64,000 nt of DNA from Artemia franciscana (lineage: Eukaryota; Arthropoda; Branchiopoda; Anostraca; Artemiidae), in the NCBI RefSeq assembly GCF_032884065.1, contig NC_088881.1:4398001-4462000 (forward strand), written 5' to 3'. The translations under genes were made by a program, and so were the position numbers. Positions 12,873-51,602 of this stretch are shown in pieces. Numbering within the stretch: position 1 is the stretch's first letter; each line of letters begins with the position of its first letter. Under the pieces are notes generated by a model. That model saw only the letters and a list, made by a program, of their open reading frames with translations, was not told where the DNA came from and did no database searches.

Positions 12873-12903
12873 ATGAAGGTTTTAATTGTTGGACTTGCTT
12901 TAT
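12873..12903 (+). CDS. Gene A exon 1 (signal peptide start)
   Basis: Thirty-one nt encode [10 protein letters not shown] plus the first base of Phe11, followed by the donor GTGAGT. The frame is open upstream to another ATG at 12783. The 12873 start is preferred because it gives a canonical signal peptide and aligns residue for residue with MKITIIGFAL of gene B. Confidence 0.8.
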
Positions 12904-15900
12904 GTGAGTATTCCTTATTTAATTTTTTTAAAGATTACCTAGTCTTCACCATCTTCACTGGACTTGGGGGGTCACGATCTGCCCCCCCCCCCATATTTGC
13001 AATATAATAGAAATATGCTGCACTTAAATATAAAAATCCTAAAACTAATTTACATAAATATTGATTTTTATTACCCAAAATCTCCATTAGAATCAAATAT
13101 AAATCCTTAAGAAGGCTATGTCAGACGCAACGTTTTCCTTCAGTGTTTTAAGAGCGTATACGTGTGACTGATTATCTTACTCGTTGGGCGTTGAGCAAAC
13201 AAAAGAATATCAATAAAAAAAAAATTATATCCAGAAAATGTGAACAATGTAAACAAAAGCAACCAAATGGAATAGTTTAATTCAATTTGTAAACATATTG
13301 AATTAAAATGGAATAGTTGTGATGAGGTTCTTTCAGGTTCAGCATGCTCGGTTCATCCATTATAATGGAAAATTCCCCAATATATTTGATACTTGGGAAA
13401 TATATTGAATAGTACGTCAGGAAAGTGGGAAATAAATTGAAAAGTTGGACTTGTAATGAAAAATAGTGTTCAAGGGTCTCTAATTTCAATCGCCAAGAAA
13501 CGTATTTGAAAGGTTAAAAGGCCCTTTGTGAGAACCTTATACCTGAAACCTTTGCAAAAGTGTACTCAACAACTTCTTATATTTTTTTCGCGATTGGATG
13601 TACAATGTAGCAATGGATGTACAATATATGTATATATATATATATATATATATATATATATATATATATATATATATATATATATATATATACTAGCTGT
13701 TAGGGTGGCTTCGCACCCCCCCCTCCAAGCCCTCCCCGCGCGTGTAAGTCGTTACGCGCCATATTAGTTACGTGCCATTGTAGTTGTGTCCCTGTGTCCC
13801 ACCTGTGAATATAGATAGATATATATTTTTAACTACGTAAAACTTGCGAATTTACAACAATCTTGGCTGTCCCATTGTCTGTGCATATAAATGTCAGGTT
13901 TACCGACTCTTGAACATGCAACATATAATTGCCCATGGGAAAAACAATCTGTATTCATATCTATACCTCATTATTCTAATGATTGCCCTTGAGCTTTCTT
14001 GATGGTGATTGCTAATCGAACATTCCCTGTGTCCCTGTCGTCATTTATATATCCCCCTGTGCCCCCGGCATCCCCCTTGTAGTTGTTTCCCTGTGTCCCG
14101 GTCGTCATTTATATTTCCTGTGTCCCGGTCGTCATTTATATTCCCAGTATCTTGGTCGTCATTTGTGTCCCAGTGTCCCAGTCTGTAATTTCTCTTTGAG
14201 CGTCCCAGTTATCATTTATATTCCCGGTGTCCCGGTCGTCATTTGTGTCCCGGTCTGTAATTTATCTTTGAGTGTCCCGGTCGTCATTTATATCTCCCGG
14301 TCGTTATTTGTGTCCCAGTCTGTAATTTCTCTTTGAGTGTCCCGGTCGTCATTTATATTCCCTGTGTCCCGGTCGTCATTTGTGTCCCGGTGTCCCAGTC
14401 TGTAATTTCTCTTTGAGTGTCTCGGTCGTCATTTATATTCCCTGTGTCCCGGTTTTTAGTTTTCTTTTTCTCCTTTATTTTTCAGTTTTTTTTTCCTTTT
14501 TTTAGCTTTTTTCTTTTTCAGTTTTTAGTTTTTTTTATTAGTTTTTTTTTTTTTTTTTGTAGTTTTTACCTTTTTTTTATTTTTTTTATTTTTTTGTTTT
14601 TTACCTTTTGTTATTTTTTTTCAGTTTTATAGCTTTTAACCTTTTTTTAATTTTTTTTTAGTTTTGTAGCTTTTTTAGTTTTTTTAGTATTTTCTTTTTA
14701 GTCTTTTGTAGTTTTTACCTTGTTTAGTTTTTTTCTTCTTTTGTTGTATTAATGCACCAAACGACGTTTTTACCTTTTTTTTTCTTTTTTAGTTTTTAGT
14801 TTTTTACCTTTTTATAGTTTTTTTAGCTTTTTTAGTTTTTTTTTAGTATTTTCTTTTTAGTTTTTACCTTTTTTAGTTTTTTTTTCTTTTGTATTAATGC
14901 TAAAGCCAAGGTTCGAGCCTGGAACCACTCGGACCTGGAACCTGGAACATAACGCAAGTAAAACAGTTCAAAATAGGGATGATACTTTTTTATTGACAGT
15001 GAAATATAAAATTATTTAACTGGATATTTCGAACACATATACAGTGCTCATCATCAGCAGTAAAACTGTCAATAAAACGTCAATAAAAAGGTCACTGTCA
15101 ATAAAAAGGTATCATCCCTATTTTGAACTGTTTTAATCGTCAACAATTTCACTGTCAATAAAAAGGTATCATCCCTATTTTGAACTGTTTTACTTTCGTC
15201 ATGGAAAGGCAGTGTGGTCTTCGAAGTTATCTACGTGGAACATAACGCTTTACCAACTCAGCTACTTCGGCTTGAATACATTCGTTTTTGAATTGGTATA
15301 TGATGAAATAATTCAGACGTCATATAATGACGTCACCCGACATCATTTATATTCCCAGTATCTCGGTCGTCATTTGTGTCCCAGTCTGTAATTTATCTTT
15401 GAGCGCCCCAGTCGTCATTTATATTCCCTGTGTCCCGGCCGTCATTTATGTCCCGGTGTCCCACTCTGTAATTTCTCTTTGAGTGTCCCGGTCGTCATTT
15501 ATATTTCCTGTGTCCCTGTTTTTAGTTTTCTTTTTCTCCTTTATTTTTCAGTTTTTCGTGGTTTTTACCTTTTTTTATTTTTTTTATTATTTTTTTAGTT
15601 TTTTGCCTTTTTTTTATTTTTTTTTTTAGTTTTTTTAGTGTTTTCGTTTTAGTTTTTTGTAGTTTTTACCTTTTTTAGTTTTTTTTCTTCTTTTGTATTA
15701 ATGCACCAAACGACGTTTTTACCTTTTTTTTTTTTTTTTTTTTTAGTTTTTTACCTTTTTTTTTTTTTTTTTTTTTTTTAGTTTTTTACCTTTTTTTAGT
15801 TTTTTAGTTTTTTTAGTATTTTCTTTTTAGTTTTTTTTTGTAGTTTTTACCTTTTTTCTTTTTTTTTCTTTTGTATTAATGCTAAAGCCAAGGTTCGAAC

Positions 15901-51020: not shown

Positions 51021-51571
51021 CTGTTACTGACTGACAAAAATGGGGGATTTTCCTAAGAAATGGGATACAAAACAAAAAGTAATGTAAAGAATCCTTACCC
51101 GGTGGCCTGGGAAAAGAAGGAAACGGAGCTCACCACAAACCAAAAAAAAAACACATAAACCAAAAACCAATTTTTTGTTCTGTATTTTATGACTCAATAC
51201 GTCTATGGCTTTACATATCTTCGAAATTTGAATCTTATATTTTATTTTTTTATTTGAATTTTGTTTTTGTTATTGAAATTTAACTATTTAATAACATTTA
51301 GATTAATATAAATATACAGCTCTAAACTTGGCCTCACATCCTCTTACAAAAGAACTATTAAAGAAGATTGTCATCCTCCATCCCTTTGCGGTGCCACAGG
51401 ATTCTCCGGCTTGTCTAAAAGAAGCCAATAACTGGTAGAGCATTTCATATTTTTTGATAGAACTCATAATTATGTGTAAAGAAAATGAAACAGATTTTTT
51501 TTTTGTGTGTGTGTGTGTGCGTTATCAGTTTGTTTCTCCCCCGTGACAAAAAAAAAAGAAAAAAAACTTAC

Positions 51572-51602
51572 ACAAAGCGAAGCCAATAATTGTAATCTTC
51601 AT
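51572..51602 (-). CDS. Gene B exon 1 (signal peptide start)
   Basis: Thirty-one nt encode MKITIIGFAL plus one base, followed by donor GTAAGT. Length and phase equal gene A exon 1. Thirteen nt upstream lies a possible acceptor (CAACAG) and, slightly further, TTTCATTCTAG, suggesting a noncoding first exon. Confidence 0.8.

Follow-up and report, generated by a model that had tools for sequence, protein, structure and literature searches.

A cluster of DUF745-type genes in Artemia franciscana, including one intact member and one probable pseudogene, for putative secreted, bundle-forming structural proteins

The DUF745 domain (Pfam family PF05335) has been described from Drosophila proteins, and we know of no function that has been assigned to it. 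Among the papers listed by literature searches on silk and on Artemia, none concerned the Artemia gene family presented here. The excerpted text of PMC12284834 describes the honeybee silk proteins F1-F4 as having a coiled-coil central region, ~210 residues long and rich in Ala, between unstructured flanks. The Artemia proteins resemble them in possessing an Ala-rich, predicted helical core between flanks, while differing in that their coil is Gln-rich and ~175 residues long, the flanks are of the Gly/Tyr type and a [KR]R-type site is present; the comparison is one of design only, and common descent is not claimed. A second system is represented by the shell-gland peptides SGEG1 and SGEG2 of Artemia itself, which are secreted and required for the layers of the cyst shell, SGEG2 carrying a kexin-type site that ends in KR at positions 110-113 of its 275 residues (PMC3108945). 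This site resembles the [KR]R site of the proteins described here, which are presumed to be secreted as well, although its location within the chain sets SGEG2 apart. Two SGEG2 antibody peptides are absent from the family proteins as judged by eye, and a genome search with SGEG2 peptides, which was rated uninformative, returned no match.

The window, i.e., the entire stretch of 64,000 nucleotides that was analyzed, had been described as carrying a convergent pair of paralogous six-exon genes, here designated A and B (Table 1). Splicing of both models supports this structure, with 12 exons and introns that are all GT-AG, and the claimed likeness of the two genes was likewise recovered: exons 1, 2, 3 and 5 measure 31, 53, 61 and 274 nt in both, the exon-end phases are 1,0,1,0,1 in each, and exons 4 and 6 measure 308 and 53 nt in A (+ strand) and 284 and 44 nt in B (- strand). 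The genes lie tail to tail with 13.1 kb between their coding 3' ends, exon 6 of both encodes a Gly/Tyr tail followed by a TAG stop, and the proteins align over their whole length, with an identical residue at 175 of the 248 aligned codons. Over these 248 codons dS amounts to 1.01 and dN to 0.20 (NG86), i.e., a dN/dS of ~0.2, which indicates that selection has kept the reading frame and excludes chance. The models of A and B thus represent real genes under protein-level selection, and gene A, with a product of 259 residues, is an intact family member. The preliminary description requires correction on two points: the ‘pair’ is an excerpt from a bigger family of at least seven loci, and gene B is not an open gene, its exon 5 containing an in-frame TGA that had been overlooked.

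Table 1. Positions of the genes, the premature stop and the duplicated block (window positions unless a contig is named)
Feature	Position	Strand	Remark
Gene A exon 1, 31 nt, opens the signal-peptide-like stretch	12873..12903	+	ATG, GT donor, phase 1
Gene A exon 2, 53 nt, completes this stretch; acidic propeptide	17400..17452	+	
Gene A exon 3, 61 nt, processing-type site (DKR), beginning of Gly/Tyr part	19927..19987	+	
Gene A exon 4, 308 nt, Gly/Tyr block and first DUF745 coil half	22057..22364	+	predicted: one 87-residue helix
Gene A exon 5, 274 nt, second coil half	25675..25948	+	predicted: one 89-residue helix
Gene A exon 6, Gly/Tyr tail closed by TAG, 53 nt of coding sequence	30517..30569	+	
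Gene B exon 1, 31 nt	51572..51602	-	
Gene B exon 2, 53 nt	49642..49694	-	
Gene B exon 3, 61 nt, DKR site	47621..47681	-	
Gene B exon 4, 284 nt, Gly/Tyr and first coil half	46761..47044	-	
Gene B exon 5, 274 nt, second coil half	45538..45811	-	in-frame stop inside
In-frame TGA, codon 18 of gene B exon 5	45758..45760	-	TCT in A, TCA in P1, TCA in P5
Gene B exon 6, Gly/Tyr tail closed by TAG, 44 nt of coding sequence	43644..43687	-	
Left copy of direct segmental duplication, holding B (P4 beyond window)	32304..64000, on to contig ~4484807	.	colinear with contig 4688171-4754245
P1	contig C19, 4376-4387 k	+	
P4	contig C19, 4465-4492 k	+	
P5	contig C19, 4698-4708 k	-	
P6	contig C19, 4733-4747 k	+	
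C4 copy	contig C4, ~53.78 M	-	

The window furthermore contains a minisatellite in intron 5 of gene A (window 28398-30120; units of ~70-80 bp, higher-order periodicity at 150, 235 and 466) and a very long CA/TG dinucleotide run between A and B (window 41972-42379). Decayed LINE-type reverse-transcriptase-like pieces in introns and intergenic DNA (window 22617-23676, 32553-34077 and 48321-48891) and Helitron-type helicase-like pieces (window 774-3540) were recognized by eye. In the genome at large, 75 COX1-like matches were recorded, many of them near full length and several located on the largest contigs, which represent either unusually many nuclear mitochondrial DNA copies or misplaced mitochondrial pieces in the assembly.

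Paralogues were sought beside the window and were found. When the coil of A was used as a query against its own genome, 13 exon matches were obtained, which correspond to seven loci, and a search with the most distant copy, that on contig C4, returned 13 matches to the same seven loci, a count that is to be taken as a lower bound. Six of the loci are spread over ~370 kb of contig C19, in the order P1 (+), A (+), B (-), P4 (+), P5 (-) and P6 (+). Exons 3 and 4 are fused into one in P4, P6 and the C4 copy, and exons 5 and 6 are also fused in the latter, in which no exon 2 could be located. Further placements comprise exon 1 of P4 and P6 and exon 6 of P1, P4 and P5, that of P4 (the tail) having been chosen as the best among three candidates.

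The suggested resemblance of the helical part to DUF745 is borne out by Pfam searches, in which five copies gave near-full-profile matches of 31.6-54.3 bits against a curated cut-off of 33.3 bits. P4 (54.3 bits, E 1.8e-14, for its coil part only), the C4 copy (40.9 bits) and P5 (39.0 bits) score above this cut-off, as does the P6 exon (34.4 bits, covering profile positions 2-89), while P1 (32.3 bits) and A (31.6 bits, E 1.7e-7, spanning positions 8-183 of 183, and scored minus its last 16 residues) lie 1-2 bits below it. Gene A is therefore called a DUF745 homologue on account of its kinship with P5, with which it agrees at 137 of 175 coil residues, and not on its own score. When B was split at its stop, the first piece scored 18.8 bits and the second gave no PF05335 match. 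The coil comprises 35-44% Ala and 20-22% Gln (five copies; B and P6 excluded), a composition that might by itself produce a match to DUF745; this explanation is extremely improbable, given that the matches are full-length and colinear with the profile and that none of ten sequences made by shuffling the residues of the coils of A and P4 matched DUF745 at E up to 10, in a test whose filters drop most matches above E ~0.1. By sequence comparison, A, B and their relatives are thus DUF745 homologues, and the crustacean copies differ from the profile in carrying Gly/Tyr flanks. A single, chance-level PDB match for the coil of A (E 0.46) was rejected, a PDB search with the family profile returned none at E up to 0.1, and an NCBIfam search gave no match.

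The proteins had been proposed to consist of two parts, a Gly/Tyr part and a Pro-free Ala/Gln coil, and this layout was supported, the Ala/Gln domain comprising ~175 residues and lacking Pro and Cys in the five copies counted. The proposed signal peptide and acidic propeptide fared less uniformly: a signal-peptide-like start is apparent by eye and a [KR]RG processing-type motif is found in 7 of 7 loci, but the propeptide is not always acidic: for the segment that precedes the cut, with the signal stretch counted in, calculated pI values range from 5.0 to 7.9. A Gly/Tyr tail is encoded by all six loci that retain the 3' part (in P4, as the best of three candidates). The mature proteins of the short members P1, A and P5 would measure ~20-22 kDa and lack Cys, while P4 possesses an arm of ~300 residues, rich in Ser, Pro, Gly and Tyr, between the cut and the coil.

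Structure prediction was performed separately for the two coil halves of A, each as a contiguous translation. Exon 4 was modelled as one unbroken helix of 87 residues (alignment of seven sequences, B and P6 included) and exon 5 as one unbroken helix of 89 residues (alignment of five, B being excluded for its stop), with pLDDT values of 83-98 in ten-residue blocks from residue 21 of exon 4 onwards and throughout exon 5, and of <50 for residues 1-14 of exon 4, which form its Gly/Tyr start. A long Ala-rich helix is thus predicted for A, in two halves. A heptad signal at period 3.5 was obtained with z values of 3.2, 2.9, 3.6, 5.2 and 1.2 in A, P1, P5, P4 and C4, respectively; the corresponding values at period 3.0 are 3.2, 6.8, 3.0, 3.5 and 8.5, so that the latter period is as strong as or stronger than the former in A, P1 and C4. 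All five copies share one best heptad register but, being homologues, do not constitute five independent tests. Hydrophobic residues occupy 52-76% of heptad positions a and 64-76% of positions d in these copies, and in C4 positions c, e and f equal or exceed position a in hydrophobicity.

The premature stop of gene B occupies a codon that specifies Ser in A, P1 and P5, which indicates that it arose on the B branch. The truncated product would comprise 160 residues and end in the middle of the coil and, as the stop lies 220 nt upstream of the last junction, decay of the message would be expected. One nearby AG was inspected by eye as a possible escape splice, and its use would not keep the frame. 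The dN/dS of A and B is alike on the two sides of the stop position (0.185 before, 0.229 after), so the loss of B is either young or not real. Gene B might indeed still be functional if the TGA were an assembly error, a single-allele variant or subject to readthrough, and this even ratio, together with the finding of a single lesion and intact splice sites, is compatible with such a possibility, as are the B-P5 ratios of 0.41 before and 0.65 after the stop, which rest on small counts. We nevertheless consider it unlikely. A Ser-to-stop change beside an intact sister copy is the pattern of a decaying duplicate, and the TGA is followed by A, a combination that does not qualify as a leaky stop context. 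Furthermore, the excerpted text of PMC11492255 gives a QV of 47.62 for the published Artemia franciscana assembly, which makes an error at a given codon unlikely provided that the same assembly is concerned. Gene B is thus probably a recently stopped copy, i.e., a pseudogene, whose role is retained by its sister P5.

An inverted local duplication had been put forward as the simplest origin of A and B, and their position as neighbours on opposite strands is in keeping with it. A recent event of this kind is, however, refuted by the synonymous distances and must be regarded as very unlikely: over coil codons dS is 1.11 between A and B and 1.20 between A and P5, against 0.082 between B and P5 (0.094 over the full coding part), and B lies in a block of which a direct copy is present ~256-270 kb away. 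The distances from P1 to A, B and P5 are at least 1.4 or saturated. The closest sister of B is consequently P5, ~256 kb away on the same strand, and not A. In trees, A groups with B and P5 at an ultrafast bootstrap of only 77 (nucleotide) and 67 (protein) percent, by which an old inverted duplication giving rise to A and the B/P5 lineage is possible.

The recent history is one of direct duplication, contig positions 4430304-4484807 being colinear with 4688171-4754245. Mean identity is 84.5% over the 32,381 aligned bases of the whole colinear chain, which takes in transposon pieces within the block and three repetitive pieces further left; the single-hit share is at least 71% in 8 of the 10 pieces checked inside the block and 59% and 46% in the others. 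A stretch of ~55 kb carrying B and P4 was thus copied in direct orientation, giving rise to P5 and P6. The dS between P4 and P6 (0.093 over 411 codons; 0.049 over 84 coil codons alone) is close to that between B and P5, so one duplication fits both pairs. The unique part of the block begins at window 32304. Further left, intron 1 of gene A contains a repetitive array (window ~13600-15900) with a counterpart near contig 4668-4670 k, at close to the same offset as the segmental duplication, from which it follows that the block may once have extended into A; the coil exon of A was not found in the right copy in the genome search with A's coil.

P6 retains exon 1 of P4 (95% of 40 nt) and its exon 3/4 (93% of 1149 nt), while exons 5 and 6 were not found in the 21 kb downstream of P6 at a setting which, with P4 exon 5 as query, recovers exon 5 of P1, A, B and P5. 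Exon 5 of P6 is also missing from both genome searches, i.e., those with the A coil and with C4. The duplicated copy stops inside the P4 intron that precedes exon 5, which explains P6 and would make the P5-P6 side the copy. Nearly all of the change within this pair has occurred on P6, as indicated by coil branch lengths of 0.0485 for P6 and 0.000003 for P4. Following the single duplication, therefore, B broke in one pair and P6 in the other, leaving P5 and P4.

Taken together, we estimate at about 60% the probability that A and B belong to a DUF745 cluster for secreted, clipped, bundle-forming structural proteins, of which A is intact and B is probably a pseudogene. Their best reading is as putative secreted coiled-coil proteins that would contribute to an extracellular layer or a gland secretion, with a design like that of bee silk. 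The signal-peptide-like start, judged by eye, would export the chain, from which a short propeptide would be removed at the conserved [KR]R site, the site being observed and its cleavage presumed. Since Ala and larger hydrophobic residues favour two heptad positions, the helices may lie alongside one another in a compact bundle that exposes Gln. The Gly/Tyr flanks, and in P4 the long Ser/Pro/Gly/Tyr arm, would then link such bundles by Tyr contacts or oxidative cross-links, and the linked bundles may form an extracellular layer, a fibre or a gland secretion. Secretion, cutting, bundling, cross-linking and location in an extracellular solid are what we infer from these features, and an Ala/Gln helix by itself is not proof of a material role.

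The proteins might instead be soluble components of a fluid from a reproductive or another gland, for instance of a mucus, plug or carrier, rather than of a solid layer or fibre. A Gln-rich surface would presumably be soluble, and the sole DUF745 context encountered in the searched literature is a single protein in a mass-spectrometry table of the honeybee male accessory gland, as far as the excerpted text of PMC4425483 goes. Gly/Tyr flanks on both sides of the coil are better suited to cross-linked or condensed materials, and a soluble role is accordingly judged improbable. With regard to the location of the structural proteins favoured here, the cyst shell is tempting, as Artemia builds this shell in part from secreted peptides, one of which is cut at KR. 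It is conceivable, albeit doubtful, that DUF745 proteins are pancrustacean secreted Ala/Gln coiled-coil building blocks, the Artemia cluster representing an unnamed structural set of the cyst shell or of some other extracellular layer, silk-like, ranging from short forms with Gly/Tyr ends to a long form with a Pro/Gly/Tyr arm, and evolved apart from bee silk.

The window thus holds one intact and one probably dead member of a well-kept gene family, which belongs to a known family that has so far been without an assigned function. The cluster provides DUF745 with a clear architecture beyond insects and with a testable role as secreted coiled-coil building blocks, in an animal with an exceptionally tough cyst shell that is poorly characterized at the protein level, and the coordinates given here can be used for probes. 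Furthermore, it shows how such a cluster turns over: a single segmental duplication, whose relative age is known, was followed by the breakage of one member in each of the two pairs.
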